Assembly: GCA_027604185.1 (NCBI GenBank)
Contig: JADGKB010000011.1
Coordinates: 62,001-126,000 of the forward strand
Length of the DNA stretch: 64,000 nucleotides
DNA from: Boothiomyces macroporosus
Taxonomy: Eukaryota > Chytridiomycota > Chytridiomycetes > Rhizophydiales > Terramycetaceae
Direction of reading: 5' to 3'
Below the pieces are notes generated by a model, which was not told the origin of the DNA, searched no databases, and was given only the letters and a program-made list of their open reading frames with translations. A program made the translations under genes and the position numbers. Shown in pieces: positions 664-62,978 of this stretch; the first letter of the stretch is position 1; the number at the start of each line of letters is the position of its first letter.

Positions 664-1925
664 CTATTCTTCAAAGTCATCACCAATAAACTCACCAAGT
701 CGTTCATGCATGTCTATCCACTCACTCTTATCAATACCATGTGCACCCTGTTCGAAATCTCTTCTTAAAGCAGGATCGAAATACAGATGATTAAAGTCAT
801 TGATCCTTCTGGCATAATCCAAGCAGCTTCCAAGTCCGACTTGAATCTCTTTGATTTCAAATTTAGGGAATCCCTTAAATTCAGTGAATGGATCAAACAA
901 GATGGATTTTGGCTTGGACTCTTTACCTCTGTAAAGCATGTATTCTTCATAGGTTCCTTCTTTATCAAGTGTCATATCCCACTTGTTGAACTCTAATCCT
1001 AATACCTTTCCAATTGAACTGTAATAATTCAAATCTATACGTCTGGAATCATTAAATCTGGTGGGCAGATTCAAGGATTCGATTCCTAATCCAATCAAAG
1101 CACTTTGCTGATAAAGAAATGAAAAATCTGACGAAATATCCCAATGGTTTACACTTGGAAGGTGAATTGGAATAAATGTCGCTTGTTCCAACAAGTTGTC
1201 TAACACTAGAATTTTGTTCATGTCAGAGAGTGTCTTTTGCTTTAAAGAATTAGTCTTGTTTTGCTAAATTAGCAAGAATTACCGTAATTCCATAAACCAC
1301 AATACTCTTACTGTATTCTTCGGCAAGATCAGTAACCATTCTGGACATTAAGCCTGAAAATCCATCGTCCAAGTCTGAAAATATTTGAAATCCTTGGGAA
1401 GTATCACATTCTTCCATTTGTTTACGGATCCCATCCTCAATATCGAGCGTCTAAATTAGCAAATATTACATGCTGCGGATCAATTTCTTGGTTGTAATAC
1501 TGGTACTTGTTTAGTTCATCGCCAAGAGTGAATTGGTTTATCTGGTAGACTGTATCCCTATCATAGTAGACGGAATTGAAATCAGATGCATATTCAGCAT
1601 TATTCAATGACTTTGTGTAATCTTTTTCTTCTGTTGCTTCGGATTCCAAATCTTTAATGAATTCAGAAGGCTCGTTTTCTTCTTGGCGAATTACTTGAAT
1701 TTTCCCATTCCAATTCACTTGTTCATCAGCCGCAGTTGTTGTTCCGACTGACTTGTTGTAGTCAATCATTAAGAGGCGGGGATAATATTGATCTTTGACT
1801 TGCTTGTACAACACCGAGTCATTGAAAAAAGTTTGCTGATTATAATAATTCCCAATTATATTGAAATAATGTGTTGTGACGAATGAGCTTTTGTGTCCAA
1901 ATGACAGCGTAACAATTTCCCTCAT
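664..1925 (-). CDS. Misato/Dml1 family protein (tubulin-like, mitochondrial inheritance)
   Basis: Exons: 1925-1470, 1450-1283, 1263-664 (407 aa). Both introns are 19 nt (1451-1469 and 1264-1282). The first is GTAATATTTGCTAATTTAG and the second differs from it at only two positions. The protein opens with MREIVTLSFGHKSSFVTTHY followed by a downstream FNIIGNYY, the conserved Misato segment II that resembles the tubulin/FtsZ N-terminus. The later PRLLMIDYNKSVG stretch also fits. Yeast Dml1 and animal Misato act in mitochondrial DNA partitioning and mitochondrial morphology; a GTPase activity is not established. The protein is somewhat shorter than the usual 475-570 aa. The first intron was needed to leave a frame that otherwise stops after DARY. 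Splicing restores frame through both joins. Confidence 0.88.
1451..1469 (-). other. 19-nt intron 1 of Misato, identical to SET-gene intron 3
   Basis: The sequence on the minus strand is GTAATATTTGCTAATTTAG. Exactly the same 19 bases form intron 3 of the SET-domain gene at 48536-48554 on the plus strand. It shows the window's intron pattern: GTAA donor, CTAAT branch-like motif, TTAG acceptor. The flanking exons join in frame only if it is removed. Confidence 0.88.
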
Positions 1926-2087
1926 TTTTCAGATCTGCAAATTTAAAATTTCCAAATTCAAAACCTCTGATTGGAAAATTGATACCAAGAATTCATTAAT
2001 CATCACATGTTAAGGCATTTAAGAAGATCACTGCAATTACTAGAATTTTCTATAGCATCGTGCAATTGGAAACCAAACGAAATTATA

Positions 2088-2570
2088 TTACAGGTTCAAT
2101 TGATAGAACGCAACGTCAATCCACTTTTCAAATTTATACCCCACTTTTGGAAAAGTTCCGACATAAACGAATCCGCACTTTTCGTGTAATTTGACTGACT
2201 TTTCGTTTGGAAGTGAAACACCTCCAATAACTGCTTTCTTTCCCATATCTTTTACTTTTTCAATCAAATCGGTATAAAGGATTGAACCGATGCCTTTCCC
2301 ACTTGCAGTGTGATCGAGATAGACAGTTAATTCTACTGTGAACCGGTACGCATATCTGGTTCTAAAAGTACTTGCATAGGCATATCCAAGAATCTTTCCA
2401 TCCTGCTCATAAACAATCCAAGGGAATTCCGATTGTGTCTTTGATATCCGATCCTTCATTTCCTCTACTTTAACCAGTTCCTCTTCAAATGTTATAACAG
2501 TGTTTTTGATGTAGTAGTTGTATATTGAAGCTATTTGTTCAGCATCTTCTAATCGTGCGCTTCGAATCAT
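2088..2570 (-). CDS. GNAT N-acetyltransferase, phosphinothricin/methionine-sulfone acetyltransferase-like
   Basis: A single-exon protein of 160 aa. It has the acetyl-CoA-binding GNAT fold with motif A near residues 91-98 (SGKGIGSI) and the family signatures IYNYYI near the N-terminus, RYAYRFTVELTVYLD, and LHEKCGFVYVG near the C-terminus. These match the bacterial Pat/MnaT/YwnH group, which acetylates the amino group of glutamate analogues such as phosphinothricin and methionine sulfoximine. Here the natural substrate is unknown and may be an amino acid or other small amine. Members of this family are far commoner in bacteria than in fungi and the gene lacks introns, so horizontal acquisition is possible but not shown. 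It lies between two intron-bearing eukaryotic genes. Confidence 0.9.
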   Translation of the reverse strand: MIRSARLEDAEQIASIYNYYIKNTVITFEEELVKVEEMKDRISKTQSEFPWIVYEQDGKILGYAYASTFRTRYAYRFTVELTVYLDHTASGKGIGSILYTDLIEKVKDMGKKAVIGGVSLPNEKSVKLHEKCGFVYVGTFPKVGYKFEKWIDVAFYQLNL

Positions 2571-2619: not shown

Positions 2620-3457
2620 TCATAGTTTGGAATATGTTCCTTTAGATTTTGACAATGCTGCGGTGGCAGCAGTGATTGTATCTGGTGAATTGAGCATCAC
2701 ACTGTTCCATACAGATACATATTTCAATCCATCATCAACTGAATGATCTCTAGAGTGCAAAAGAACTTCCTTGATTGATCTTGTAGCAATGGGTGGTTTA
2801 TCTCCAATCTCTACGGCTAATTTGAAACCTTCTTCAAATAGCTGTTTGGGATCTTCGTAGACTCTGCTTACCAATCCAAAATTCAATGCTTCTTTGGCAT
2901 CAAAGAATCTTCCCGTGAAACAAATATCATTAATCTGAATTAGAATCACTTACCCAACTATGGTTTCCTACCACTTTGGGCAACCGTTGTAAAGTTCCCA
3001 GATCTGCAGCTAATCCTACATCAACTTCTTTGACAGTAAATTTAGCATCAGCACTACATAGTCTGATATCACAAGCAGTGATTAAATCTATTCCTCCTCC
3101 GATACACAATCCATTAACACCAACTATGACGGGTTTCTTACATGCTTCAATAGCAGTAATTGAATCTTGCATTAATCCCAAATCAGTCATGAATTGAAAG
3201 GCTGCTCTTGCTGGATCCAAGTCTGTAGTCCCTGGAAACGAAACTGCTTCCTTCAAGTCTAATCCAGCAGTAAAATGTTTAAATGCCGAGACTAATAGAA
3301 TCGAACGAACTGAGGAATCTTCCTTAAGTCTGGTAAAGCAAGACAGTAGATCTTTGAAAAATTGCATGTTCATTGCATTCAACTTTGGTCTGTTCAAGTA
3401 TACTACAGCAACATAGTTTTTCAATTCAACTTTGATTGTTTTCAATTCAAATGACAT
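2620..3457 (-). CDS. Peroxisomal delta3,5-delta2,4-dienoyl-CoA isomerase (ECH1-like)
   Basis: Exons: 3457-2954 and 2934-2620 (272 aa), with one 19-nt intron (2935-2953). The crotonase fold is clear: the oxyanion-hole segment FTAGLDLKEA, then NGLCIGGGIDLITACDIR, then EVDVGLAADLGTLQRLPKVV. The Asp in AADLG and the EVDVG acid are typical of dienoyl-CoA isomerases rather than plain hydratases. The enzyme shifts conjugated double bonds so that unsaturated fatty acids with odd-position bonds can be beta-oxidised. The C-terminus is SKL, a canonical PTS1 peroxisomal import signal. PEX8, an import-machinery gene with its own PTS1-like tail, lies at 40.9-44.1 kb. Confidence 0.93.
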
Positions 3458-6374: not shown

Positions 6375-7545
6375 ATGTTGCCTGAAATCCCGTACTATAA
6401 ATTAATTATAGTGGTCAATTAGTCACAGATAGAAACAAACTGGGCGAATTAAGAGAAAAAATTGTTGGATTATTTGATCAGAATCTATCACCCAGAAGGT
6501 TTATTGGAGCACAACCTGTTTCGTTTGGGTCAGCACATTTGTCAGAATTACTACAAGAGGATTATTTTGTATCAGAGAAAGCAGATGGGATTCGATTACT
6601 ATTATATACCAGAACACTGCCAGACAGAAGGGTTGAAGCCTATTTAATAGACCGCAAGAATAACTACTATTACCATCACTTTGGACTGCCACTGCCAGGA
6701 TTAGAAAAATCGCATCTGAACACTGTTCTTGATGGGGAATTGGTTATCGATAGCGGTAGAGTATTCTGTATTTTATATAGAAACTGTTTATGGTTTTCGA
6801 TGCACTTTATATCCATGACAAGGATTTAACCGGAAAGCCATATACCAAGAGACTAGGAGTATTAAGAGATTAATTCAGTATTTAAGAGAGTCTGTCATCA
6901 AGCCATTCATGAAAAGCATGGAAAGAAACCCGGATTATGTGAGGAAATTCCCATTTGAAATTACTCAAAAACGAATAGAATTCTCTTATAATCTACATTG
7001 TGTATTTAGAGATATAGAAAAGTACAAACATGAAACTGATGGAATAATATTTACGAGTGCTGTTGCACCATATGCATTTGCAACATGTGATAAAATGTAA
7101 TTTAAAAAGTAATGAAGGCTCAAGTGGAAACCAGCGGAAGAGAATACCGTAGATTTCAAGATATTAAACAGTAATGGAGTGTATCATCTTGGAATACTAG
7201 TCAAGGATGATAATTACGAAGATTTTGGAGAGCTTACATTGGATGAAAAGACTGCCCAAAAGTAAATTTGAAATAATCCAGATGGAAAGATGATAAACCT
7301 TTTGGAAGGATTATTGAATGCAGATATGACCCAGATTGGCCGAATAACTGGAAGTTTTCCAGATTCCGAGATGATAAACTAACTTCCAACCATATTTCTG
7401 TATATCACAAGATTCTAGAGTCTATCCATGATAACGTCACTAAGGAACAGGTAATCACCGTTTGAAATAGTTGCTGGAAATCCGCTTGGATATTTATAAA
7501 CACTGGAAGCAGCGCGATCCACTAATAAAAGAACCTAGAAAGTAA
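6375..7545 (+). CDS. mRNA capping enzyme, guanylyltransferase subunit
   Basis: Exons: 6375-6391, 6412-6760, 6781-6858, 6879-7096, 7118-7261, 7282-7450, 7471-7545 (349 aa). There are six introns of 20-21 nt, and the first exon is only 17 bases. The nucleotidyltransferase motifs appear in order: EKADGIR (motif I, the Lys that accepts GMP), LDGELV (III), the F-DAL segment (IIIa), TDGIIF (IV), LKWKPAEENTVDF (V) and WKFSRFRDDK (VI in the OB fold). The protein transfers GMP to the diphosphate 5' end of nascent pre-mRNA in the nucleus. No RNA triphosphatase domain is attached, as in fungi where it is a separate protein. Length fits the family (yeast Ceg1 is 459, chlorella virus enzyme 330). Confidence 0.95.
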
Positions 7546-14632: not shown

Positions 14633-16606
14633 TTAATAAGACAATGATTCAGTTTGAGAGCCAGCTACAACTGTGAACACTTGGTTGTTTCCGCTGTACC
14701 ACATTGGGTTGGAGCAAGTAGTTTTAGAGGCAGTTCCATAAACAATTGGTTTCCATTGGACTGAAGCGCCAGGAGAAACACTTTGCAGGCTACACAACCA
14801 AACATTTCCAGTTGTCCACGAACAAGCGACTCCAGCACATGCATTCCAATTATTAAAAGTTCCCACAACATAGAGGTTATCTCCAAATGAAGTTTGATGG
14901 GTTACTTTAAATGTGATAGTTGCGCTTGGGGTCGGAGTTGCAGTTACAGTAGGAGTGGTGACCGTTACTACCACTTGAGTAGTTGTAGATTGTGCAACAG
15001 TAGTGGTTGTAGTTGTTACGACAGGAATGGTGGTAGGTTGAGCGGTTGAAACTACGCCGTCTGCACCACTGTATAGCGCGAGAACTCTTGATTGATCCCC
15101 ACTTCCGATGTTGATCGTCACAAATCCATTTTGATCAACAGTGTAGAGCACTTGCTCTGCGGTCAAAGAAACGCCAGGCCATAAAACGCACTTGCCATTT
15201 TGAGCATATCCATAAACAAAGTTGCAATACTTTCCAGGTGCAAGCCCAGATTGGACAGTGTTTGACATTAGTTGATTTGGAGCAGTTCCTTGAGCAGAAT
15301 TAATTGCGACAAACGCTTTGCCTGGTACTGACCAATAAATTTGATTAGTTGCAGCGGTTTGGATATTTGGGGCAGGGCTGGAGGAGATGTAGTTTCTAAT
15401 TCTTACAAGCGGATACACATCGGGCATGCGATGTTGCAATGTCCATTTAGAAAGACTTTGTGACAGAGGCAAAATGTAACCGCTTGAATTGGATGGAGGT
15501 GAAACAGGTATTTCATCTTGGTTATTGCCAACAAATTGGAAATTGTAACCAGAGTGTACAATCGGCATACCATAAGGATACAGGATATTGAAAGCGACTG
15601 CTTGCTTATACCACCATGCGTTATTGATTCTATGGAGGGCATAGTTTGCGTTGCCGTCGTTGTTTCTTTCAGTATCATGGTTTTCAACAAATGTTACTGA
15701 ATCTTGTTGGTTCAACTGCAATTTTGAAATCTGATTAGCTAACTGATCCGTGGAAGAACCTATATTTCTGAACGCTTTGCCAACAGCTTGACTGTAATCA
15801 AAATTCAATATGCGGCCAGTGGATTGATAATTCTTGTAGGTGCCATCTGGGAAGGAATACATAATTTCATGTACAAAGAAAGGATTTTCTCCTCTATAGT
15901 TCTTGTTTAAGCCTGCTGTGAATGCTTGAAAATCCGCAAGTGGAATACTTTTAGTTGCATCTAAAATTAATTCGCATTTACCGGCTCTAAATCCAGCTAC
16001 ACCCAGAGACAACAAGTAATTCAAGTACTCAGTGTGTTTTTGTCTAACGTAAGGATGCTCGGTTGCCAAATCCACCAAAGTCTCCAGTCTGCAGTTATAG
16101 ATTGACCATTGGTTGGTCCAGTCTATGTTATCATTGCAGATGTTATCGTGATAGTGTTCAGAAGTAAAGCCTGGATCTGGATAGTATTCATTGAACGCTT
16201 TTGCAGTCCATGGAGTCTTGTTGCTGTATCCAAACCCAGTAGACGAGTAGCCACCAACACCAGAATTGTGGTTTAGCACAACATCAACAATGACATCCAC
16301 TCCAACACTGGTACAAACAGCAGTCATGTTTTTGAAATCTTCGAGGGTACCCATTCTGTTTCCAACATTGTACCCCAAAACTTGGTAATTCAAGTACCAT
16401 CCAAAAGGCGCTCCAGTGGGGATAGAATTGATATGCTCCACAACAGGAGCAGTCATGACAAACGAGTAGCCATTAGGAGCCAAAAAGTTGACACATTCTT
16501 CTGCTATATCTTTGAAACTCCACAAGAAAAGAGTAGCCCCGACGGATCTTTCATTAATAGCATACTGCGAATAGACGCCAGAGAGAAAGAGAGAAAGAGC
16601 AAGCAT
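14633..16606 (-). CDS. Secreted alpha-amylase (GH13) with one starch-binding module; one 21-nt intron inside the catalytic Asp codon
   Basis: Exons: 16606-15982 and 15960-14633 (650 aa spliced). The frame also reads through unspliced as 657 aa because the 21-base intron (15961-15981) has no stop. Spliced, the barrel reads GVAGFRADATKS, matching GFRFDAAKS and GFRTDAAKS in the sisters; unspliced, seven extra residues sit just before the nucleophile Asp. The Asp codon itself is split G|AT by the intron. Other catalytic residues are the Glu of FVHEIMYSFPDG and the Asp of FVENHDTERN. Signal peptide about residues 1-13; the C-terminal CBM20-like module contains LYVVGTFNNWNACAG. A TATAAA box lies 25-30 bases upstream of the start. 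The sisters lack this intron. Confidence 0.93.
   Translation of the reverse strand: MLALSLFLSGVYSQYAINERSVGATLFLWSFKDIAEECVNFLAPNGYSFVMTAPVVEHINSIPTGAPFGWYLNYQVLGYNVGNRMGTLEDFKNMTAVCTSVGVDVIVDVVLNHNSGVGGYSSTGFGYSNKTPWTAKAFNEYYPDPGFTSEHYHDNICNDNIDWTNQWSIYNCRLETLVDLATEHPYVRQKHTEYLNYLLSLGVAGFRAGKCELILDATKSIPLADFQAFTAGLNKNYRGENPFFVHEIMYSFPDGTYKNYQSTGRILNFDYSQAVGKAFRNIGSSTDQLANQISKLQLNQQDSVTFVENHDTERNNDGNANYALHRINNAWWYKQAVAFNILYPYGMPIVHSGYNFQFVGNNQDEIPVSPPSNSSGYILPLSQSLSKWTLQHRMPDVYPLVRIRNYISSSPAPNIQTAATNQIYWSVPGKAFVAINSAQGTAPNQLMSNTVQSGLAPGKYCNFVYGYAQNGKCVLWPGVSLTAEQVLYTVDQNGFVTINIGSGDQSRVLALYSGADGVVSTAQPTTIPVVTTTTTTVAQSTTTQVVVTVTTPTVTATPTPSATITFKVTHQTSFGDNLYVVGTFNNWNACAGVACSWTTGNVWLCSLQSVSPGASVQWKPIVYGTASKTTCSNPMWYSGNNQVFTVVAGSQTESLSY
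15961..15981 (-). other. Stop-free, frame-neutral 21-nt intron in amylase 3
   Basis: The minus-strand sequence begins GTAAATGCG and ends ATTAATTTTAG, matching the window's intron consensus. Removal restores the GFR-x-D-A-x-K motif found in both neighbouring paralogues. Because it is 3n and stop-free, a gene finder would translate it as seven residues. Confidence 0.88.
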
Positions 16607-21323: not shown

Positions 21324-22461
21324 ATGAATTCAATCACAGAATCTTTTGAAAAGGTAGCGAAAAAACAGAGATTATTGGCAATAGAAACCGATTCATGTCT
21401 GGATGCGATGATTGCAAATTTAAACGCTTGTCAAGATAATCCACAGGCTGTAGCGCAGCTGCTATCAAACACGAAGGCAATGGCGGCAAAGCTCTCTGAT
21501 AGCGCAAAAGATTTTCACAATACTATTGGAAAGTATTCAAAAGCAATCGAAAAGAAATTCAAGACTGATTTAGATGGAATATGGGATCCGAAAGCTTTAG
21601 AGGGAAAAGAATATGTTCTTTATCAAATCCTGGTTATGCATTTTGTACGCGAAGGAAGGTTTGATCTGGCGAAAATGTTTGCCAGAGAGGCTGGAATAGA
21701 CTTTGAAGAGGGTTTACATGCTCAATTTGAAGGGATGTTTCATATTCAAGAAGCTTTGCGCAATGAAGATATATCCTTGGCCTTGGAATGGGCGATGGTT
21801 CATCATAAATCTCTAGTTGAGAGTGGATCTACATTTGAGTTTAATTTACACAAGCTAAAATATTTGGGATACGTTAGGAAAGGAGATATTAAATCAGCAT
21901 TAGCTTACGCGAAACAAAACTTTGCTCAGTTTGCTACCAAACATATTAAAGGTATTCAATAGGATTAATCCAGATATCCAACAGCTAATGTGTTCAATCC
22001 TTTATCACAAGCGTTTACCTAATTCACCTTATCCACAATTTGCCGATAGCCATCTTTGGAGCGATATTCAATCTCAATTTTCAAGAGATTTCTGTAATGT
22101 ATTGGGACAATCATGCGAATCACCCTTGTTTACATGTGTAACAGTTGGATCCACCGCGCTTCCGATGATCATGAAAATATCATCATTAATGAAAGACAAA
22201 GCAGTAGAATGGTCGCAATCTGGTGAACTACCAGTTACCATTCCATTGTTAGATACGCAAAAGTATCACTCTGTGTTTGTTTGTCCGGTCACTAAAGAAC
22301 AAGGCACAGAAACAAATCCTCCAATGATGATGGTTTGTGGCCATGTCATTTCAAGCGAAAGCTTGACCAGATTAAGCAAAGGCAGTCTCAATTCTAGGTT
22401 TAAATGCCCTTATTGCCCAGTTGATTCTACCGCAGCACAAGCCGTTAGAGTATTCTTTTAA
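21324..22461 (+). CDS. GID/CTLH E3 ubiquitin ligase subunit Rmd5 (RMND5)
   Basis: Exons: 21324-21951 and 21974-22461 (371 aa), with a 22-nt intron. The N-terminal helical part precedes a LisH/CTLH region (LYQILVMHFVREGRFDLAKMFAREAG, then FHIQEALRNEDISLALEWAMVHH). The C-terminus holds the degenerate RING of this family: FVCPVTKEQ, PPMMMVCGHVIS and FKCPYCPVD, with Cys and His spacing unlike a standard RING. Rmd5 with Fyv10/Maea forms the catalytic core of the GID/CTLH complex, which in yeast degrades gluconeogenic enzymes. Length matches yeast Rmd5 (421) and animal RMND5 (391). The SKP1 cluster begins 250 bases downstream. Confidence 0.93.
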
Positions 22462-22709
22462 TATAATGATTAATTTGAATTTACCGCTCGGAAATTGAAT
22501 AGATCATCATTAAATAATATATCTTGTGATTCAATTGTGCGATATTTTGTGATTGTTGTTTCCATTGCACAACGAGTGGATCGTACCAAGCCAAATTATA
22601 AACTCGAAATACTACTTTTATGGCGATGACTCGTATTGCTCACTTTAGCGGCTTTCATTGTGAAGACAGAATGTACGTGGCGTACTATTTTTCTGTCCTT
22701 TTCTCCAAC

Positions 22710-23204
22710 ATGGTCAAATTAACAAGCAGTGATGGTCAAGAATTTAATGTTGCTGAAGACATCATTACCCAATCTCAATTAATTAAAAACATGCTCAGTG
22801 ACTTGGAAGTCGGAGAAGCTGCGATTCCACTCCCTAACGTTACCGCTCACATCCTCACAAAAATCATTGAATATGCTACTCACCACAAAGACGATGCTCC
22901 TCCACCACCAGAAGACGAGATGAAGGCAAAATCATCTGATGACATTGATGAATGGGACAGAGATTTCATTGCAGTCGATCAAGGTACTCTTTTTGAAATC
23001 ATCCTCGCTGCCAACTACATGGATATGCAAGGCTTATTGGATCTCGGTAATTGATTATTAATGATAGGATGTAAGACTGTTGCCAATATGATCAAAGGTA
23101 AATCAGTAGAAGAAATTAGAAAAACCTTTAATATCACTAATGACTTTACCCCTGAAGAGGAAGAACAAATCCGCAAGGAAAATGAATGGTGCGAAGATCG
23201 CTAA
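22710..23204 (+). CDS. SKP1 (SCF ubiquitin ligase adaptor), paralogue 1
   Basis: Exons: 22710-23046 and 23068-23204 (157 aa), with a 21-nt intron. The BTB/POZ-like N-terminus is [20 protein letters not shown] and the C-terminal helices that hold F-box proteins include [30 protein letters not shown] and [12 protein letters not shown]1 links cullin-1 to F-box receptors. This copy keeps the classic acidic end but finishes [17 protein letters not shown], as in true SKP1. An in-frame ATG at 22620, 17 bases after a TATAAA at 22598-22603, would add 30 residues; the family starts at MVKL, so 22710 is preferred. It is one of five SKP1-like genes here. Confidence 0.93.
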
Positions 23205-23475
23205 TAAATGTTTATTGCTATTCCAATCTATTCCTTGACGGTATGCAAAGTAACGCGGCATCAAATACTAATCACAACTCTAGTCCGTAACGTTTAAATA
23301 TACGGGCTACTACTGGATGCGGGTATAGATATTACGGCCTCTCGCTGGTTTCAAATATTACTGCTGATACATCGCTTCCCAAACAGCTCGACTTTATACA
23401 CTAGGTCCGAGTCAACCCTGCGATGCTCTAAACAAGTTGCAGTTAGTGCAATACTATATCTTTTTATTCTATGCA

Positions 23476-23885
23476 TTACATACCATGTAAATCAACAGGG
23501 ATTTCAAATTCCTTGCAGACGGTATCCAAATCTTGCTCATGCTCACCCAAAAACTCTTCCATGTTTTTTGAGCACAATTCAGTCAATTCATCAATCTCCA
23601 ATGAATTGGCAGCTTCAATAATTTCAAACAATACAGCAGTATCAACTTTAAGAAACTTCTTGTCCCAATCCAATTCCTCTTGGTCATGCTCTGTATGTTC
23701 AGAGTGGAAATTAACCCATTCAAGTACTGCATTAATTTGGTTTTACCTTTTAAAAGCGCAGAAGAAGATAATGCTGGTACAGCAATTTCAGTTTGTAACT
23801 CGTTACGTTGAACAAACTTTGAGAGCTTGGCCATTTTTGGTGGTATTTGGATTACTTTATCGTCACTACAGATGATGCTGACCAT
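23476..23885 (-). CDS. Divergent SKP1-like protein, paralogue 2 (opposite strand)
   Basis: Exons: 23885-23747 and 23726-23476 (129 aa), with a 20-nt intron at 23727-23746 in a position equivalent to that in another copy. It begins MVSIICSDDKVIQIPPKMAK, reads AVPALSSSALLKVLEWVNFH where SKP1 has the IPLPNV and I-x-Y block, and has TAVLFEIIEAANSLEIDELTELC where SKP1 has [13 protein letters not shown]. It is shorter than SKP1 and ends PVDLHGM instead of the WxxEEE helix that contacts the F-box. It therefore may have lost F-box binding. It lies on the minus strand inside a cluster otherwise on the plus strand. Confidence 0.8.
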
Positions 23886-24168
23886 TGGGATATTTGTCAA
23901 AATATTTCCCCGACTTTTGGTTTGTGTTCCCCAACCAGTTTCATGTGCCAATCTCGCTGATCAAAGAATAAAATGAATCAAAAAAGATGAATAAGACGTT
24001 GGGAATACAAGGGAACTAGGGATTTGTATTTGTAATTCTATACAAGAATTATTGTGGAAAATCTACAAGAATTTCTCTAATATTTGGGAAACATTTCTGC
24101 TTAAACAGTATATCCCAGTTACTTTACAAGTTTGTTTATGTGGCTGGATTGCTTTTTACTTTTTGCAA

Positions 24169-24648
24169 ATGAGTGGACCAAATATCAAAATCAAAACCTC
24201 GGATGAAAAGGAATACTCGATTGAAAGAGAATTAATTTTCCAATCAAATTTAATTAAAAACATGGTGACAGATTTGGATGTTGCCGATGCTACAATCCCA
24301 CTACCGAACGTTCGCTCAGACATCCTTGACCTAGTATTAAAATACATGCAAATTCACAAAGGAGAAATTATCCCAGAGAGACCTATTGAAAGAGCGGTTG
24401 ATGATATGTCTGACGAAGACAAGGAACTGATGAAATTAGAACATTCGGTCTTGTTTGATTTAATACTGGCTTCAAACTACTTGGATATCCCTGGTTTACT
24501 GGACATCGGATGTCGAACAGTAGCAATGAAAATCAAAGGGAAAGACTATCGTCAAATCAGAGAGGAATTCAATATCCCGGAAGAGCTGTGGAGATCTGAA
24601 GAGGAAATTGCGGAGATGAAGAAAGAATTGAATGGGATACTGGGTTAA
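24169..24648 (+). CDS. SKP1-like protein, paralogue 3 (intronless)
   Basis: A single exon of 159 aa, MSGPNIKIKTSDEKEYSIER through EMKKELNGILG. It has the SKP1 fold blocks IPLPNVRSDILDLVLKYM and LFDLILASNYLDIPGLLDIG, followed by EEFNIPEELWRSEEEIAEMK. The last helix differs from the canonical SKP1 end. It is most similar to paralogue 5 (25320-25799), with which it shares the whole C-terminal 30 residues almost unchanged, indicating a recent duplication. Neither has an intron, whereas paralogues 1, 2 and 4 do. The ATG at 24169 matches the family start; an upstream in-frame GTG/TTG extension is hydrophobic and unlikely. Confidence 0.9.
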   Translation: MSGPNIKIKTSDEKEYSIERELIFQSNLIKNMVTDLDVADATIPLPNVRSDILDLVLKYMQIHKGEIIPERPIERAVDDMSDEDKELMKLEHSVLFDLILASNYLDIPGLLDIGCRTVAMKIKGKDYRQIREEFNIPEELWRSEEEIAEMKKELNGILG

Positions 24649-38524: not shown

Positions 38525-39462
38525 ATGTCAAATTCAGAAGCAAAACCAGGCTCAATTATGAATATGAAGCGCCATAGCGCCTCAATCAGCTTTGTAAACG
38601 ATAGCGATATTGGGTATAAGTATCCCAGAACATCGAAAACTCACCCACTAAATATTTCTTGGATTCTGAATGATTCTGATCAATACAGAGTAAAACGAAC
38701 AAAGCAGATTTCCCAGAAACTATTGAGTGAAATATCAGTCGATACACATCGCGAAGAGTACGAAAAGGAGGAGTTTATGGGAATATCCGAATTATGCAAC
38801 CCACCAAGCAGCATTCAACGTGGAAATTTTGCCCTTTCTTCCTGCCCAGGGAAAAAGGTAAGATTGACAGGGCCAATTAGAGGAAAAGCAATGATTTCTC
38901 GAGATCTGGATCTGGATTTTCAACGTATTGCAAGTTTCAACATCAAAACCGTAATCTGGTAACCAAACCTAATCTAGTTGTTTGGATGATGAAGAGCTGG
39001 AATTCCTTGGTGCTCCATGGGAGAAATACAGGTATTGGATATATAACAGAGTGCAGCAGCAAAAAAGAATGACATTCACGTAATTCGCTGCCCAATTGTG
39101 GAAGGCTATGCTCCAGATCGTGAAGAAGATGTCAATGATATTTTAATAGAGTTGGACAAGAAAATGCTTGCCAATAGTAATGTTCTATGCCACTGCAGAG
39201 GGGGTAATTTTATCTAACGAAAGGGATAGGAAGAGCAGCTGTGATAGCTTGTTGTTTCCTGTTAAGAAAAGGGTACTGCTCTACACCAAGAGACTCCATT
39301 GCTATGGTAAGACAGAGAAGGAGCTCCAAAGCCATAGAAACGATTCGTCAAGAGAACTTTATCATATCCTATCACAACTGGCTAAGAACAAGAGATAAAA
39401 ATGCATTCATTTATTTAATTTTGCCCAGGTTGAGGAACGTTACCCATAATGTGATCAATTAG
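38525..39462 (+). CDS. CDKN3/KAP-like dual-specificity phosphatase
   Basis: Exons: 38525-38958, 38978-39031, 39052-39203, 39224-39462 (292 aa); introns 19, 20 and 20 nt. The N-terminal third is basic and probably disordered. The phosphatase domain runs from FQRIASFNIKTVICCLDDEE through DIHVIRCPIVEGYAPDREED to the P-loop LCHCRGGIGRAAVIACC (C-x5-R) and MVRQRRSSKAIETIRQENFI. KAP removes the activating phosphate of CDKs; the substrate here is inferred. The general-acid Asp is plausible at APDREED. Intron 3 splits the P-loop itself (after CRG). Intron 2 skips an AG two bases earlier. The stop lies inside the convergent TIM50 coding region, overlapping by 48 bases. Confidence 0.87.
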
Positions 39463-40784
39463 TTTATAATCATTCTTTTTCATTTCTTCAATTTGCTTTT
39501 GAATCATTTCTTCCTGTTCCTTGCGGTGCTTTTCTAAAGTCTTCAAGTGCTTGTCGTATTCCTTGTTCAACACTTTTTTGATATATGCTGAATGGCTTTC
39601 AATATTATTCAAAGAGAGCGCACCTATTTCGCTAGCATTTTGACTACTAGCATGTAGTGCTCCGCTGTTCATACCAACTAGTGTTTTTAGCAAGGAGCCA
39701 ATTTGTTCAACGGAAGACGCCTTGTCATCAGAGCCTAATATATTCTTGGCTATGCTTCTCAAGTGATCCTTGTGCATGTTCCAAGCTTTTGGAAAATCTT
39801 TATCATCGTACTGCTTGATGGTTCTCAACAGCGGTCTAATATCCTTAATCTTATTAGCTTCAACAAACAAAAGCATTTCTAATTTAGAATGAATTTACCA
39901 TGCAGAGCATCAGCGTATTTAAATAATTCAGTGTCACCCTTTTCTCCTTCCCATTTCTTTAGCAAAACTCCGTTATCAGGATGAGTTTCCAGAGCGTTAG
40001 GATCAATATCAACAACGATAACTTTGGACAAATCCCGATTTAAAAATTCCAAATCCTTCAAGTGAACATCGCCTTTCAACCTGTGGTGTTCGCGGAATAA
40101 ACGATAATGAACCATTCCAAAGTTATCAATTGCATCAACTACTGGAGTTCCCAAGTGGTGAGGAGTGTTGGTGTATACTACTACCTCAAAGAATTGGGAA
40201 AGCCTGAACAAAAGTTGTTTTGCACCAGGACGAATTGCGATTCTCCATCCTAAATCACGCTAACGTTAACAATAGCTTACATCCCAAACCAAGTGTGTCA
40301 ATGCGTCAGTAAGTTCGAGACAAACAGTGTAATCTCTTGCTAATTGCGGTGGTAATGGTGGTAACAGCTTCTTTTTTGGAGGATTCATAAAGTAATCATA
40401 AGACTCCTTGATTGCCTCCATTGCTCTTCTATTATGAGCCTGGAAAAAGTTTTCCCCTTCAACGTCCTCTGATTCATGAGTGAATCCCAAATATAAATAT
40501 GAAGAAATTACACCAAGACCAATTGCCCAACTTACACCGGATTTTGCTTTCGCATCCAAATCCTCTTCTCCTTCCGCTTTGGTCTCTTTTTCAGGTTCTT
40601 CCTGCTCGGAAGCCTTTTCCTGTTGCTCTTGTCTTTTCTTTTGGTCATTCAATGCTTGTTGAAATAAATCGTTCGAGTTGTCCTTTGTAGAGTAGAATGC
40701 GTTCGGAACTCTATCAAATCTTTGTCTACGGATATTTAAGGCAATCGATGGCCTGGCTTTCAAGAATTGAAACGCTCTTTTCAT
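39415..40784 (-). CDS. Mitochondrial import receptor subunit TIM50
   Basis: Exons: 40784-40281, 40259-39899, 39878-39415 (442 aa); introns are 21 and 20 nt. A basic presequence (MKRAFQFLKARPSIALNIRR), a charged coil (KKRQEQQEKASEQEEPEKE) and one membrane helix (VSWAIGLGVISSYLYLGF) lead to an FCP1-like domain. That domain includes DYTVCLELTDALTHLVWD, RPGAKQLLFRLSQFFEVVVY, HRLKGDVHLKDLEFLNRD and the KVIVVDIDPNALETHPDNG segment. TIM50 receives presequence proteins at the inner membrane TIM23 channel. The DxDx(T/V) phosphatase signature is degenerate (LELTDAL), as expected for a receptor. The C-terminal coding end overlaps the phosphatase gene on the other strand. Confidence 0.93.
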
Positions 40785-50541: not shown

Positions 50542-51761
50542 ATGCTTTCACGGCTCTCAAAAAATCCACTACAAGTTCAAACAGGAAGAAACCTTCATAT
50601 TGACTTTTACAAAAACAGAATCCTCGAGAAATACGCAGCGAAAAACCCAGTACCAGTCACTCTGAGACAATTGACGGTATTTGGACGAACAGAGTCACTG
50701 AATGAGGAAAAGTTGATTAGATCTGGTAAGTTGAAACTAACAAAGCAAATTATCTACGGGAAGAACTACCCGTTCGTCTAGCCCATCGCATCAGGTAGCT
50801 ATTTCTAATGATAGAATGTTTCAGCAACTGCCATTCGTTGTAGGAACTAATCCTCATATTGAAATGGTTTACAGATTGTACTGGGAAGCCTTTGAGCAGT
50901 TTAGAAACTATCCGCCAGTTCATAACATGGAAGAAAACCTTGAATTTTGTGAATTTGTACAGGACCAATTAAATACGCATGCCATTGTTATTCCCCACTT
51001 GGTTGTTGGTATGTATGAGTCTCAGAGTCATGTTCGGGCTTCCGATTGTAACAAATTCATGAATGAAACACTCCGCTCACGAATCAGCAGAAGAGTATTG
51101 GCGGAACAGCACATTGCCCTATCTTCTGTTCAGAAAGGATCCAAACCAGCATCTGATGGCATGATTGGAATTCTCAATACTTCTTGCAAAGCAACGGAAG
51201 TTGTACATAAATGCTTTCGTCTTGCTGGAGAATTGTTTTCCAAAACTTACGACGCAGAACCTCCCGAATTGATTGTTGATGGACATTTAAATGCTTCATT
51301 TGTATATATACCAGATCACATTGAATACATCATGTACGAACTATTCAAAAACAGTATGAAGCATACTCATCGAACACATTCAGACAAAAATCCGTTGCCG
51401 CCAATCAGAGTTACCATTGGAGTAGGTGATAACCAAGTTATGTTCAGAGTCTCTGATGAAGGTAATTATTTATAACATAGGTGGTGGAATTGACAAGGAG
51501 ACGATGAATAATCTATGGAATTTTGTAAAGCCTAGTTCGGAAGAACTGTATCAGCAAAAACGATTGACTGGAAAGATTGAAGACGCAATTCCAATAGACC
51601 TTCCTCTTGGTATAGGACTCCCGCTCTCGCGAGTATACGCAAATTACTGGGGAGGATCGCTTTCGCTTTATAGTATGTTTGGATATGGAACAGACGCATA
51701 TGTAACAATCTGCACCGGAAACTCGCTGGAGAATCTGTCATTCATTGAAGACGCTGCTTAA
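50542..51761 (+). CDS. Mitochondrial dehydrogenase kinase (PDK/BCKDK family)
   Basis: Exons: 50542-50725, 50746-50794, 50815-51461, 51481-51761 (386 aa); introns are 20, 20 and 19 nt, exon 2 is 49 bases. A presequence (MLSRLSKNPLQVQTGRNLH) leads to the four-helix domain (LRQLTVFGRT, LPVRLAHRIRMFQQLPF) and the GHKL ATPase domain. Its boxes are ELFKNSMKHTHR (N-box), VSDEGGGI (G1, created by splicing) and LGIGLPLSRVYANYWGG (G2), followed by SMFGYGTDAYV. These kinases phosphorylate and switch off the pyruvate or branched-chain ketoacid dehydrogenase E1 in the mitochondrial matrix. Which of the two substrates applies cannot be decided here. Confidence 0.94.
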
Positions 51762-51810: not shown

Positions 51811-53114
51811 TCACTTTGTAGTTCCAGCAGGCCAGATTTTAGCTTGAACAAATTCATCAATAACTTGTCGGACAAGGGCTTCTGTCATTTCAGGATGAAT
51901 GTATTTAAAGTTAAGGGTCTTTTCAATCTAACATTAACAAGAATTCACTTTGCTTCCATCAATAGAAAGAGCGTTATCCTTTAATAATTCACGGTCCAAA
52001 TAAGGAGTTAATGGAGTATTGGCGATTTCCCCAGCTTTGCAAAGTTCAGACCATGGTTGGAGGTGCTTTTCATTGACATCTTCGGTGATAGATTCGAGAT
52101 TCAACTGGGATTATATTGGTTTACCTTTGCAAATTGAGAGACTACAGTTCCCTGGAATCCAGTTGAAATGTTGAAAATCTTTTCAATGAAGGTGTTGACA
52201 GTGCCTTGGTCTATTGTTAAACTTTGGTTACCTGTATCGCCCTTATCGGCAAGATTGTAGATTTCAGGTGAAGCAATGTCTGGAGATACTCTTCCACCCT
52301 TCTCCTCAACAGTGGCGGAAACATGCCATAAGGCTCTTACAACGTCTGCGACATGTACAGTATTGATCTTCAAATCTTTAGTCCATAAAAACTTCATTTC
52401 TTCCTTCAGATGGCTGTAAACTGCACCAATAATCAATCGAGGAGCTAAAGTTATACGAAATTACTGATTCCAAGAATATCGAATGGGCCGTAGACGATAG
52501 CAGGTCGAATGATAATCAAGTTGAGACTGCGTTAGAAATCATCTACCCAGGAATCTTGGTAATTTCTTCTTCGGCCTTGGCTTTCGCCTTGGCAATCAGG
52601 GTCCATGGCTTAATCTTTCCATCTTCAGCGGATGGTTTCTAAATTAGCTGGGAGTTACCTTTCCAGCTTCGTAAACCTGCCCAGTGCTAACTTCTACAAA
52701 AGCACGAATTTTTCGTTTCGCGGCTTCTTTCGCTACTGTAACGGAAAGTTGATAGACTTTTTCATCATAAACCTAAAGTTAACGAGAAATACCTCTTCGG
52801 CTTGTCCATATTTGGTTTCGGCGGCCAAATTGAATACAATATCAAATTGTTTACCATCCTCGCGCGAAAAAACCTTTTCTGTGAATGCTCACTAAATAGG
52901 AACGAAAAGTACCAGCATTAACAAGATTCGCTTGTTTAAATTCTACCCTGGAATCCGCAAAAATCTTCTTGTGTTCTGCTGAAAGGTATGCTGTGGCTGG
53001 TAGTACTTTGTCAACTACTCTAACGCTGTTGACAAGATTGTTTTCAATCAAGTAGGCAACAAAATTTCTTCCGATAAATCCAACTCCTCCTAGTACTAGT
53101 ACGTTGAGTGACAT
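51811..53114 (-). CDS. NAD-dependent epimerase/dehydratase (extended SDR)
   Basis: Exons: 53114-52913, 52887-52793, 52772-52659, 52638-52547, 52526-52465, 52444-52125, 52104-51949, 51927-51811 (385 aa). Seven introns are required, mostly 20-21 nt. The N-terminus LNVLVLGGVGFIGRNFVAYL is the NAD-binding GxxGxxG Rossmann motif. Other SDR elements are VFNLAAETKYGQAEE, VEVSTGQVYEAGK (Ser of the active site and YxxxK-like region), IIIRPAIVYGPFDILGI and INTVHVADVVRALWHV. The substrate is unknown; relatives include sugar-nucleotide epimerases and sterol dehydrogenases. Intron 1 is ambiguous: 25 nt (52888-52912) is preferred because it gives NAAFTEKVF, but 34 nt (to 52879) also keeps frame. Confidence 0.87.
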
Positions 53115-53788
53115 TTTGTTGGTTTCACTGATTTGAGATTCGCGTCAAAGAAAAGCAAAGCGCAAAACTCGAGTAAACACACAGATTCAGGGTGATGAAA
53201 TGAATGAACTCGGTGTTTAGAACGTATTGTATGAGCGCAAGTAGGAAATATACGTCGCTGCCCGCCAAAACTAGCGCTCCGTGGAGTCCACGAATGATTT
53301 TTGATATGCAGCATAGATCGATACATGTGAAATTCCTTTTATTATGAGAGTGCTCTAGAAAACAGTATTAAAGCGATTTGGCATATGTAAGTATTGCGTA
53401 GATTCACGCGACTTGTAACAAAACTGGCTGAATCGACGCTTATTATCAAATATGAGGTGCTTCATCTTTATCTTTTGCAAGGAATTGATTAGGATTTTGT
53501 TGGTAGATTCAAATTAATAGCTTGGTGAACTAAAATATAACAGAAATTTACAATATTCATTTGATGCCATGCTTTAGAGTGAGCGAGCTGATCTTTTTTG
53601 CCGTACAAAGTGTTAAAGTGTTCATTGGCGTGTTGACTAACAATTATGCGGTTAGCAATTAAAATTTCAAAAAGACATTGGTGCTGAATAGGTCAGATTG
53701 TAGGAATAAACAGCACACTGCAACACCTCTCTGTTGCAGCAATTCACTTGAATCAACAGTTTACAAAGCAAGCCTGTTATTTATTGGT
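53115..53788. other. Intergenic stretch between epimerase and YchF genes, with a possible small spliced gene
   Basis: On the minus strand, codons from about 53721 down to 53552 are open and protein-like (CLFEILIANRIIVSQHANEH, then FNTLYGKKDQLAHSKAWHQM). A 22-nt intron-like string (53530-53551) of the window's type joins them to FTKLLI and a stop at 53509. No start codon was found; upstream strings at about 53735-53770 also look like splice sites. The rest (53115-53500) holds the epimerase promoter and nothing I recognise. Confidence 0.4.
53509..53721 (-). CDS. Possible 3' exons of a small unrecognised gene
   Basis: Two exons, about 53721-53552 and 53529-53509, flank a 22-nt intron-like string. 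The encoded tail of about 60 residues is hydrophobic then basic. The 5' end is unresolved: in-frame stops appear upstream and no ATG fits, so either further micro-introns exist or the tract is not coding. Confidence 0.3.
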
Positions 53789-55220
53789 TAATTTCGGTTT
53801 GCTGATTTCTTGCGATGTTTTAAATGAAATAATATTGTTGTTCAAAGAAATAAGATCATCTTCACCCAGCTACAGTTAATATAAATTACTCTGATGTTGC
53901 CCACAGTTTCAGCATATAAATAATATTTTTCTAAATCTGGATGTACCATTCCTGCAAGTTGCCGGACAGTTATTCCAGGTCTGATGAGCATACAGTCACG
54001 GAATACACCTCCCTGTCTTGTCCCGGTAGAACTGCTGAAATTGTTTACGTTTCTAACAGGATAAACAGGAATCAATCTAATGTCAATGGAAAAGTTACCC
54101 CAAAGCATCCACAACTGTCTTCAAGCATTCTTGGATACCTGTATGGCCAAATCGGAATAACACTAAATCTTGAACCCGTTCTAGTCGTGCCTTTGTTTTC
54201 TCATCCATTGGAATCAACTTTTCTCCGTCAGCTCGCACTGGCACATCTTCTGCCGTTTCAAAAGCGTCAGTCCCTTCATAGTAATTAATGAATTTTTGCT
54301 TGTGGAGCTTGCGCAGAAAGTTTTCGGCCAATGCGCTGATTAAAACAATTTTAGACTGGATTAGTGTAAGATACTTGATCGTATTTCCTGGATATATTGT
54401 CTATATTCTTGTCAGAATCAGGGAGATCGATTTTGTTCAATGCCTATTTTAGATGTGAATTACAACGACAGTAGGAAATCGAACATCCAAAAAGACATCA
54501 ACTAGTTGCTGCACTACTTCATCGCTCCAAGTTTCCAGTGGATCCTTGTTTGGAAATTTATCCAGAATCTGATTCATTATTAATCTGTTCGTTCCGTATC
54601 CGCTAAACTGTCCCTGAAGAGTTTCAACAATCGGAGATTCTGTGTTAGTTGGATTTACTTGTTGCAACGTGTCTACGAACGATATTTGGCCATTTTTTCA
54701 TCAAGTTATTATACACCCAGCTAAATTAGATTGGCGAAACCTATGAATTTCTGAACGCAGCCAGTCAATGTCGTTAATGGGGTCATATCCAACAGTAACT
54801 TTCCCGTTTTCGTCTGTTGTACCAGAAGCGTCCACTACATGAATTAAAGCGTCTGCAGTTCTTAAATCGTCCAAGAATTGGTTTCCTAATCCTGCTCCAG
54901 TTGAAGCTCCAGGTACTAGTCCTGCCACATCTAATATCTGGAGAGGAACTGCTCTAACCCCATTAACACATTTCCCCTGTCTGGGATTACATTCTGCCTG
55001 TTTATTGAATTTCGCACAGGGACATGGTAAATTGACATAGGCTACTCCATGATTTGGCTGGGTTTAATCACTGAATACTTTGATTGTGGTAAATGGAAAA
55101 TTCCCTACTTTGGCTGATGCTTCAGACACTGGATATTAGCAGTGAAATACTAGCATTGAGCATTGAACTTTTTCCTGCCGATGGTTTCCCCACACATGCG
55201 ACTAACACTTCATGGCCCAT
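53789..55220 (-). CDS. YchF/OBG-family GTPase (archaeal-type, TGS-containing)
   Basis: Exons: 55220-55151, 55128-55079, 55057-54741, 54720-54659, 54639-54464, 54443-54375, 54355-54099, 54076-53890, 53869-53789 (422 aa). Eight introns of 19-22 nt split the gene so finely that no single frame exceeds 110 codons. G1 is VGKPSAGKSSMLNA, G2 region VGNFPFTTIKPNHGVAYV, G3 LDVAGLVPGASTGAGLGNQF, G4 VALNKIDLPDSDKNIDNI, G5 LISALAENFLRK. The TGS domain is GGVFRDCMLIRPGITVRQL. VPCPCAKFNKQAECNPRQGK-like Cys and the DLRTADALIHVVDASG block follow the archaeal/eukaryotic second YchF type rather than Ola1. These bind ribosomes; the precise role is unclear. Confidence 0.9.
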
Positions 55221-57287: not shown

Positions 57288-58563
57288 ATGGATACATCAA
57301 CACAGCGATTAGCAACTTCGAGCACCTCGATTTCAAATCTATACAAAACAAGCTCCAGAGACGCTCTGTCAAAAAAGAAAGTGCCTGGAGTGGACAAACC
57401 ATCCGCGCAATCAAATGCTTTGGCTTATAAATTAAAGAAGCAGCTTGAAGGTGAAGAGTCGGAACGTGAACCAGACTTGAACGGGATACTGAAATGGAGA
57501 TGGTCGAAAAAAGAAACCACAGAAATCTATTCCTTGAATTTTTCACCAGATTCGGCTTACTTGGCAGCAACTGGAGGACAAGGAAACATTTACATTTACT
57601 CTACTTTTACTAATCAAAAAGAGTTTACTCTAGTCCCCGATTTAAAAGTATTTGCTCCATGTACTTCGGTTGCATTTCGACCAGATAATAAGGATTTAAA
57701 AAACAAGAACGTGTTGGGTGCTACATGTACGTAGTTTTTAATGGTAGACTCTGATGGGTCTATAAGACACTGGCATGCGACATCTGGACAACTAATGAGT
57801 ACAATCGAAGGCGATGATGTTCAATTGCATCATATCGCATATAGCTCGTCAGGATTAACGTTTGTAACTAGTAGAAGCGATGATTGTATTCGTGTTTACG
57901 ACGCCAACACTAATCATGTAATCTACAATGGAAAAACTATGGAGGAAAAAGGAAATATTGGCCATTCGAACAGAGTGTTTTGTGCGAAATTCCACCCTAA
58001 AGATAGTAACTTTATTATTAGTGGTGGATGGGACAACAATTTACTGGTAATTGTTCTTTATATTAGATTTGGGATATCCGCAAACCTAACCCAGTAAGAT
58101 CTATATTCGGTCCACATATCTGTGGGGATGCCATAGATTTCAACGATTCTGGAAGCACAATTTTGACAGGATCTTATACAAGAGACCAATCTATTCAATT
58201 GTGGGACTGGCAAACAGGATCATTGATTAAATCAGTAAACTGGAACTCTGACCCTGAAATCCCTGCATGTTTGCTCTATTCGGCAGTGTATAGTAAAGGA
58301 ACAGCACACTCTGGTGATATGCTTCATCAAAGAAATAGATTTGTTTTAGCAGGAGGTAGCTCTTTTTTGATGTAGGTTCTGGTTTGAATGAAGTACGCCT
58401 GTTCAGTACAGAATCGTTTAGGGTTGTAGGATCTGTGGAACATCTGAATTGTGCAGTGTACACGGTTGCTATTAGCAACGATGATAATTTAATTGCTCTG
58501 GCTGGTGGTGGCAAGATGGTGATGCTACTAGAATTGGACGAGCAAATTGAAACTACAAAGTAA
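57288..58563 (+). CDS. WD40-repeat beta-propeller protein
   Basis: Exons: 57288-57726, 57748-58046, 58067-58355, 58376-58563 (404 aa); introns are 21, 20 and 20 nt. After a basic N-terminal tail (residues 1-65) come about seven WD repeats, including IYSLNFSPDSAYLAATGGQG, SDGSIRHWHATSG, DDCIRVYDANTNHV, FCAKFHPKDSNFIISGGWDN, LLIWDIRKPNPV, TGSYTRDQSIQLWDWQTG and a C-terminal VYTVAISNDDNLIALAGGGK. The last repeat exists only after splicing. The protein is a scaffold with unknown partners; similar small WD40 proteins occur widely in protists and fungi. Each splice site falls within a repeat, as expected for introns inserted without regard to repeat borders. Confidence 0.87.
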
Positions 58564-62117: not shown

Positions 62118-62329
62118 TAAAAAGATGTTTATCTACGTTTTGTTTTAATCCGGGTTATGCGGATTTTCTCCCGCCAATCCGACCAAAGATCTGTGGCCGC
62201 GACAATTGAAAAACCAACATTGGATAACCAGAAGGTGTAAAAAATGAATAAATGTAAAAGAGCAAAGTAATATTATTAGAATTAGTAGGATATAAATTAG
62301 TACAAAGAGTTGCCCCTATTCACCTATTT

Positions 62330-62978
62330 CTACGATGTTTCATTCTCCTTTTCTTCATGGAAATTTAAATCTTTTCTATAATTTGAGCCACAACGGATTG
62401 GAACTCCTTGAATGAGGAAAGATCTTGATAGCTGCGTAAGCGACAGTATTCCAGGATACGACTGCGGTGGGAAAACTTGAAAAGGTTTGGTTTCTAGGTA
62501 GATTGACTGGCCACTACGATTAAAACAGCTTACGTTTGCAAGTTGCCAATATTACAGCATAGTTTAAAGTCGCCCTGAATTCTTACAGCCAATTCAGGAA
62601 ATACAAAGAATATTTGTAATTCGTTCGACTTCATATCGTTCAATAGAACGCCGGTAGTGACAGTCTGGCCCAATAGAACGGATTTAATAGAAGTACTATG
62701 GGTTTTATGCCCAATAGTTTTTGAAAAACAAATTAGCCCATTATGCGTCCCGTCTTCAGCGTCAAGGATAGTGGTATTACAAATAAACTCAAATGGTTGA
62801 TAATTTCTACGTTAATATTACCGTACTTTGCAGGTTTTGGAAGAAGCAATTGAATAATAAGCGGTGGATCGCTAAGTTAATGAAAACAGTACAGCATTCT
62901 GCGTGATACGGTGTCACCAAGTCCACACATTCTCCCTCTTGAGGGTTGCTGTCTTATGATTGCTGAGAAGTCTTCCAT
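62330..62978 (-). CDS. Velvet-domain transcription regulator, hidden by three micro-introns
   Basis: Exons: 62978-62893, 62871-62827, 62806-62534, 62513-62330 (195 aa); introns are 21, 20 and 20 nt. The sum is 588 bases, a whole number of codons. The full velvet domain reads in order: FSAIIRQQPSRGRMCGLGD, SRRMLDPPLIIQLLLPKPAK, FEFICNTTILDAEDG, SVLLGQTVTTGVLLNDM, QIFFVFPELAVRIQGDFKLC, then the closing KPFQVFPPQSYPGILSLTQL and SRSFLIQGVPIRCG. Velvet proteins are fungal DNA-binding regulators of development and secondary metabolism with an NF-kappaB-like fold. No single frame here passes 91 codons, so frame-based gene finding misses it. It is a nearly bare domain with a short acidic tail. Confidence 0.92.

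Follow-up and report, generated by a model that had tools for sequence, protein, structure and literature searches.

Very short spliceosomal introns have been described from several lineages. In the parts of the cited papers available to us, on which the comparisons made throughout depend, introns measure 15-16 nucleotides (nt) in Stentor coeruleus (PMC9505925), 16-17 base pairs (bp) in mikrocytids, where the parasite M. mackini has 224 introns and a highly reduced spliceosome, and 18-21 bp in chlorarachniophyte nucleomorphs (PMC10245619), with 20-33 nt in Paramecium and 21-29 nt in Nyctotherus (PMC2633312). Among fungi, the mean intron of Cryptococcus is 63 bp, and the available portion of a 644-genome fungal survey mentions no ultrashort class (PMC8476143); a pan-eukaryotic survey left out introns below 30 bp (PMC10639083). 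Here we analyze 64,000 nt of the Boothiomyces macroporosus genome (Chytridiomycota, Rhizophydiales, Terramycetaceae), namely C11:62001-126000 of a 15.2 Mb assembly in 216 contigs, hereafter the window. Its genes are interrupted by predicted introns of about 20 nt, and we consider it very probable from sequence analysis that these are U2-type introns, trimmed near the lower physical limit across the genome as sampled. We take Boothiomyces to be a free-living saprobe.

Nucleomorph introns (PMC10245619) are nearly equal to these in length and also narrow in range, but they belong to the extremely reduced genome of a relict endosymbiont nucleus, whereas the host here is a fungus with a 15.2 Mb assembly. 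The introns of Paramecium and Nyctotherus are likewise tiny and likewise tend to break the frame or bear a stop if retained, although they are slightly longer (PMC2633312). Mikrocytids share the extreme shortness and uniformity (PMC10245619), but in Boothiomyces there are about 2 introns per kb of modeled coding sequence, and eight of the nine splicing-protein families that we sought were found. Other fungi, judged by Cryptococcus, are also intron-rich, with introns roughly three times longer (PMC8476143). In the open-licence literature we found, among the matches listed, no report of ultrashort introns in Boothiomyces or in chytrids, though an earlier mention is possible, and the available parts of two chytrid genome papers give no intron lengths. 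The sequence facts themselves are already public, as annotation software splices many such introns, even if they are undescribed.

Raw counts of GT...AG spacing show merely a mild excess at 19-22 nt, and a coding-aware model was therefore needed. We used a blind gene finder that received open frame, codon bias and GT...AG only and charged the same price for an intron of any length, and ran it on 268 kb from 22 contigs, comprising the window and 21 other pieces. The first round, for which long open frames were the sole training material, gave 101 introns; 34 of them fell at 19-23 nt, while every other length occurred once or twice. At three penalties of the flat-length model, introns of 18-25 nt made up 45 of 100, 58 of 133 and 90 of 219 calls; 12 decoy dinucleotide pairs run at the same penalties yielded 4-11, 4-15 and 10-24 introns of that size. 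Outside the window, the loosest penalty gave 65 such introns among 162, against 8-19 for decoys, and at least one tiny intron was found in 18 of the 21 pieces blind and in all 21 with a trained model. Later runs used codon and site models trained on prior predictions, which lends GT-AG some advantage; the first round is free of this bias. With splice-site matrices and flat length, applied to the 264 kb that also served for the motif, branch-position and adjacent-unit runs, we obtained 276 GT-AG introns of 18-26 nt versus 14-29 for seven decoys, and no longer length class rose above the decoys. The trained model placed 400 of its 471 introns in the 268 kb at 16-26 nt, and we take the other 71 (37-400 nt) to be mostly gene fusions. 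If the 268-kb sample is typical, extrapolation would give some 20,000 tiny introns in the genome. An earlier note, made on the window alone, had proposed a genome-wide system of 18-25 nt introns; the blind flat-length models bear it out within the window and beyond, and independent models have introns that lie exactly at the two end coordinates it gave, 1264 and 62892, namely 1264-1282 (19 nt) and 62872-62892 (21 nt).

The window, annotated with an intron limit of 60 nt, yielded 41 gene models with 106 introns, about 2.1 per kb of coding sequence. All but three of these introns are 16-26 nt long, with a mode of 20 (one of 16 nt, one of 17, six of 18, 20 of 19, 42 of 20, 16 of 21, 12 of 22, two of 23, two of 24 and one of 25). 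The three exceptions measure 43, 54 and 59 nt. On reading, we judged the 43-nt intron at 17249-17291 to be false together with 17299-17321, and the 59-nt intron at 8634-8692 to be false together with 8593-8608; the 54-nt intron at 41547-41600 is the window's candidate longer intron. Raising the limit to 400 nt produced 12 window introns above 25 nt (43-400 nt), which we take to be mostly fusions of neighboring genes such as the amylases.

The introns have a common internal anatomy. Motif discovery on 89 blind introns returned, unprompted, the branch-site-like motif (T/C)T(A/G)A(T/C), or YTRAY, at 2.06 bits per intron; shuffled interiors reached 1.01 bits, and 112 blind introns of 26-100 nt gave 0.43 bits and no such motif. 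YTRAY is present in 61 of the 89; in 51 of these its branch A is nucleotide 14 or 15 of the intron, and in 52 a further 5 or 6 nt follow it. A YTRAY whose branch A lies 4-7 nt from the intron end occurs in 57 of the 89 (64%), against 685 of 12,256 (5.6%) background GT..AG strings of that length. The donor consensus resembles AAG|GTAATT, the acceptor is TAG, and the introns are 72% A+T. A occupies +3 in 88% of donors, unlike P. bursaria, which has no donor consensus at +3 to +6 (PMC12862383). The few nucleotides past the branch site are too short to hold a pyrimidine tract.

Among the 103 tiny introns of the window, phases 0, 1 and 2 number 44, 34 and 25, lengths that are not multiples of three account for 79, and retention would shift the frame or add a stop in 93, leaving 10 with neither effect. 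Indel errors of sequencing or assembly, or decay of pseudogenes, would likewise leave short inserts that shift the frame or hold a stop, and the 93 are what that explanation has in its favor. Errors would not be expected to share a GT..YTRAY..AG anatomy and a 20-nt mode, and the proteins of two other strains, JEL0866 and JEL0838, agree with our splicing at most compared junctions; we think it extremely improbable that the inserts are artifacts.

The comparison with those strains is fullest for two genes. The NAD-dependent epimerase gene (51811..53114, minus strand; spliced protein of 378 residues) has eight introns, 52888-52912 (25 nt), 52773-52792 (20), 52639-52658 (20), 52527-52546 (20), 52445-52464 (20), 52211-52231 (21, frame open if retained), 52105-52124 (20) and 51928-51948 (21), and its product aligns to two proteins, P0122 of Boothiomyces sp. 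JEL0866 and the chytrid P0125, with no gap at any of the eight junctions. The public B. macroporosus protein HK103_000611 (P0121), probably derived from the assembly used here, equals our product except for two splice differences, so that six of eight junctions agree: it has seven additional residues at the in-frame 21-nt intron 52211-52231 and lacks three at the first junction. Splice errors of the kind that gave P0121 its extra residues may be common in the genus. Between the first junction and the second, the JEL0838 epimerase P0123 is short of 43 residues; beyond that it is collinear with our product. The OLA1/YchF-type GTPase gene (53777..55220, minus strand; 426 residues) also has eight introns, 55129-55150 (22 nt), 55058-55078 (21), 54721-54740 (20), 54640-54658 (19), 54444-54463 (20), 54356-54374 (19), 54077-54098 (22) and 53870-53889 (20), again gap-free at every junction against the full-length chytrid relatives P0002 and P0003, which brings the two genes to 16 of 16. 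Its best match, Boothiomyces sp. JEL0838 P0001, agrees at the last six junctions and is without the first 65 residues, the span of junctions one and two; Globomyces P0004 lacks the residues directly past the seventh. Across the public Boothiomyces proteins, most but not all compared junctions agree. A Pfam check covered 13 further genes with 32 junctions, of which 17 lie inside a domain match above cut-off; the remaining 15 fall either in a weaker match or outside any domain.

The spliceosomal RNAs agree with this anatomy. We searched for the U1, U2 and U6 small nuclear RNAs (snRNAs). U1, on piece L024, is full length, and its score of 68.8 bits is just under the cut-off of 69.5; its intact 5' end, AUACUUACCUG, fits GTAA in the donor, though donor +5 is G in just 12% of the 89 blind introns. 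U2 is present in two copies above cut-off with GUAGUA intact; and U6, also above cut-off, carries ACAGAG. On their GT..AG ends, branch motif and snRNAs, we assign the introns with high confidence to the U2-type (major) spliceosomal class, and the claim that spliceosomal introns of about 20 nt, among the shortest known, occur genome-wide in a fungus is supported. Translational bypassing and the DNA-level excision of ciliates also act on short, uniform, AT-rich inserts within genes, and the likeness of the Boothiomyces strings to such inserts speaks for a mechanism of that kind. Bypassing requires no GT/AG ends, no branch motif and no match to U1, U2 and U6, and excised DNA would be missing from the expressed genome; either process is a very unlikely explanation.

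The protein machinery, as far as sampled, is near normal. Eight of nine splicing-protein families were found in what is a small sample: Prp8 PROCN, SF1 (with helix-hairpin, KH and zinc-knuckle domains), U2AF65, Cwc25, Yju2, Isy1, Slu7 and Prp18. U2AF65 (TIGR01642), read through its introns, reaches 230.7 bits, below the cut-off of 310.3, and shows two RRM stretches after splicing. RED_N had no match in the genome search, whose controls gave none either, so that this negative has no positive control. A loss of many splicing proteins, as in parasites with a reduced spliceosome, is not what the sequence suggests, with eight of nine families present. The earlier note had suspected an adapted spliceosome and singled out U2AF, SF1, Prp8 and the U2 and U6 snRNAs; the first three are represented here, by U2AF65, SF1 and Prp8 PROCN, the recognition sequences of U2 and U6 are canonical, as is that of U1, and the suspicion goes mostly unsupported, with the Isy1 N-terminus as the one candidate for an adaptation.

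Stentor is the closest comparison on this point. Its authors suggested that two changes, a Cwc25 that has lost its glycine plug and an Isy1 altered at the N-terminus, give tiny lariats the space they need (PMC9505925). Boothiomyces resembles Stentor in its near-fixed branch A, a tail of about 5 nt and conserved U1 and U2 recognition motifs, but the loop is 10-11 nt there and mostly 14-15 nt here, and the plug lost there is intact here (PMC9505925). The Boothiomyces Cwc25 start, MGGGDLNLKKSWHP, matches 5yzg_X, a solved CWC25 homologue that we take to be the human protein, at all 14 residues, and it keeps the glycine-rich plug, so that plug loss is not needed at this intron size. The CWC25 surroundings occur as 3,288 identical bases on C49 and C100 (pieces L035 and L036), which means that the region was duplicated recently or that a second haplotype was left uncollapsed.

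Isy1 is a different matter. It lacks the MARNEEK-type start present in three of five other chytrid proteins (P0243, P0246 and P0247), and its residues 1-37 do not align to human ISY1; the divergent N-terminus appears both in our gene model and in the JEL0838 protein. The start codon lies about 40 bases from a modeled divergent neighbor, which leaves little space for a hidden first exon. Together with the unusual N-terminus of Stentor Isy1 (PMC9505925), the missing MARNEEK-type start and the unaligned residues speak for a spliceosome rebuilt as proposed for Stentor, with the Isy1 N-terminus as its key change, acting on tiny introns that are themselves real. The intact Cwc25 plug and canonical snRNA recognition sequences argue otherwise, the remaining two chytrid proteins blur the contrast (Globomyces P0242 is intermediate and P0244 has a later start), few proteins were covered, and the Isy1 N-terminal model is itself uncertain, having more than one splice solution. 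We regard such rebuilding as unlikely, a minority possibility; the parts examined, the Isy1 N-terminus aside, give no sign of it. At 1434-1510 of L040, a piece on C39, the Isy1 N-terminus may hold two tiny introns separated by an exon of just 1-4 nt, and the public JEL0838 model is spliced otherwise there.

Longer introns do occur. One of 46 nt lies in Isy1 (L040 1970-2015); once it is removed, the protein aligns without gaps to human ISY1 and to JEL0838. In a METTL-like methyltransferase gene on L007 (C6:20001-30000), three whole 19-nt units directly abut one another, without intervening exons, on the minus strand at 1313-1369 (reverse-complement coordinates), forming a 57-nt composite intron between the codons for HNAW and DNVE; we take HNAWDNVE to be a motif of the METTL-like gene, and the match to METTL6 falls downstream of the join. 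Two adjacent intron-unit pairs were found in the 264 kb, both at this locus, against 0.2 in shuffled sequence. On the plus strand of L015 (C15:20001-30000), 9063-9155 holds four units of 20, 21, 21 and 22 nt with ATG after each. Either these are introns with 3-nt microexons between them that encode an Asp run, or they make up a single composite intron, perhaps arisen through tandem duplication; Tandem Repeats Finder reported no array there. Near 3423-3461 on the plus strand of L016 (C16:20001-30000), adjoining introns of 20 and 19 nt were modeled without an exon to separate them; since the reading frame stays open across the two, they may be false. The earlier note's statement that no longer intron was needed stands for the window, as far as judged and with the single 54-nt candidate, and fails for the genome, given the 46-nt and the composite 57-nt introns. 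That a limited search met these two would fit a mixed population in which tiny introns are many and longer ones common but missed. In the splice-matrix run, which covered introns within coding sequence, GT-AG gave 46 introns of 27-99 nt against 122-164 for the seven decoys, a comparison to be read with the caveat that true short introns vie for the same places in the model, and we hold a mixed population to be improbable.

Several observations weigh against short U2-type introns as the whole account. No YTRAY string is present in 28 of the 89 blind introns, and G stands at donor +5, usually a strong position, in just 12% of them despite a canonical U1. Three of the 21 outside pieces yielded no blind intron of 18-25 nt. 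The model set includes false introns, and the public Boothiomyces proteins used for comparison are, as far as visible, predictions too. The 46-nt and 57-nt introns mean that the spliceosome is not confined to about 20 nt. The support comes from the sequence anatomy, the reading frame, homology over the joins in a subset of genes, the recurrence on other contigs, and the snRNAs and core factors, and with these together we still favor U2-type introns trimmed to near their minimum.

A typical intron would be laid out as an AAG|GTAATT donor, a spacer of about 4 nt, YTRAY with its A at 14-15, and 5-6 nt to TAG. The donor would be read by U1 and then by U6, and the branch site by SF1 and U2. Since donor and branch site nearly abut, at about 4 nt, U1 and U2 probably bind one after the other rather than side by side. 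Because no pyrimidine tract fits the gap between branch site and acceptor, U2AF65 would have to do without the tract it usually binds or use the U-rich stretch past the donor. The first step would close a loop of 14-15 nt and leave a tail of 5-6 nt, with the first downstream AG taken as acceptor. The narrow length range may follow from the two short spacings together with deletion bias down to the splicing limit; bias toward a splicing threshold is one possibility raised for mikrocytids (PMC10245619). We give even chances to a bolder proposal, that a conventional opisthokont spliceosome (with the Cwc25 plug, U2AF65, SF1, Slu7 and Prp18) routinely splices introns of 19-21 nt through a lariat of 14-15 nt, and that intron units can stack head to tail as modules.

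The 10 frame-open models of the window were read individually. Two are supported, 52211-52231 in the epimerase gene and 15961-15981 (21 nt), the sole intron of a gene at 14633..16606 (minus strand) that we take to be alpha-amylase-like. Retention of the latter would insert seven residues into FRA-DATKS, where the two adjoining paralogues read FRFDAAKS and FRTDAAKS. Two were rejected as coding: 51334-51354, which presumably encodes a conserved kinase motif, and 45313-45333, presumably an UNC93-like motif. Four are probably false (12453-12470, 12524-12541, 18709-18732 and 20165-20182), and 30607-30624 and 46622-46642 are candidates. Short-exon models at 39177-39223 and at the end of g8 are doubtful, and the very short exons in L005, L012 and L016 are model proposals, some of which we judged doubtful.

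Tiny introns were modeled in further genes of the window; the domains named below are those of Pfam matches. Gene g1 (664..1925, minus strand) is modeled with introns 1451-1469 and 1264-1282 (19 nt each). The enoyl-CoA hydratase/isomerase gene (2620..3457, minus) has one intron, 2935-2953 (19), with its junction in ECH_1, and the mRNA capping enzyme gene (6375..7545, plus) has six of 20-21 nt, 6392-6411, 6761-6780, 6859-6878, 7097-7117, 7262-7281 and 7451-7470, with five of six junctions within mRNA_cap_enzyme or mRNA_cap_C matches. A CTLH/RING-UBOX protein (21324..22461, plus) has its junction, at 21952-21973 (22), in CTLH. The SKP1-type genes g15 and g18 (22671..25231, plus) contain 23047-23067 (21), 24867-24885 (19) and 25179-25198 (20), all three within Skp1 or Skp1_POZ. 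An alpha/beta-hydrolase (34601..35943, minus), which we assume to be homoserine acetyltransferase-like, has 35200-35219 (20) in Abhydrolase_1, and a NIF-domain protein (39415..40784, minus), presumably TIM50-like, has 40260-40280 (21) and 39879-39898 (20), both in NIF. In the mitochondrial dehydrogenase kinase gene (50542..51761, plus), 50726-50745 (20) and 50795-50814 (20) interrupt BCDHK_Adom3, and 51462-51480 (19) falls in a HATPase_c match below cut-off. The WD40 gene (57288..58563, plus), with introns 57727-57747 (21), 58047-58066 (20) and 58356-58375 (20), has one junction in WD40 above cut-off and two in propeller matches below it, and the velvet-factor gene (62330..62897, minus), with 62872-62892 (21), 62807-62826 (20) and 62514-62533 (20), has one of three within Velvet. 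The four junctions of g20 have no Pfam match, and the rejected 51334-51354, modeled in the dehydrogenase kinase gene, is counted among the 32.

Intron number varies within two tandem runs. On the minus strand at 9600-16606, three tandem alpha-amylase-like genes, which we take to carry starch-binding-like tails, are almost intron-free compared with their neighbors, and in the SKP1-like run at 22671-25799, g15 has one intron, g18 two, and g17 and g19 none. Scanning the whole window for tRNAs and against Rfam, at the gathering threshold, returned no matches.

The interest of these introns lies in their phylogenetic place, a fungus, and in the near-normal machinery that accompanies them. The compared literature, as far as available, places ultrashort introns in ciliates, relict nuclei and reduced parasites, and there odd machinery could be blamed. 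A fungus whose machinery is near normal, as far as examined, parts intron shrinkage from reduction of the spliceosome, and the physical minimum of an intron becomes testable in a group with public relatives in Globomyces, Batrachochytrium and Kappamyces. There is a practical side as well, in the seven surplus residues of P0121 and in a survey floor of 30 bp (PMC10639083). If a conventional spliceosome does splice such introns as stackable modules, it would be RNA geometry, rather than special proteins, that sets the lower limit of intron length, and tandem stacking would make one route of intron gain visible.

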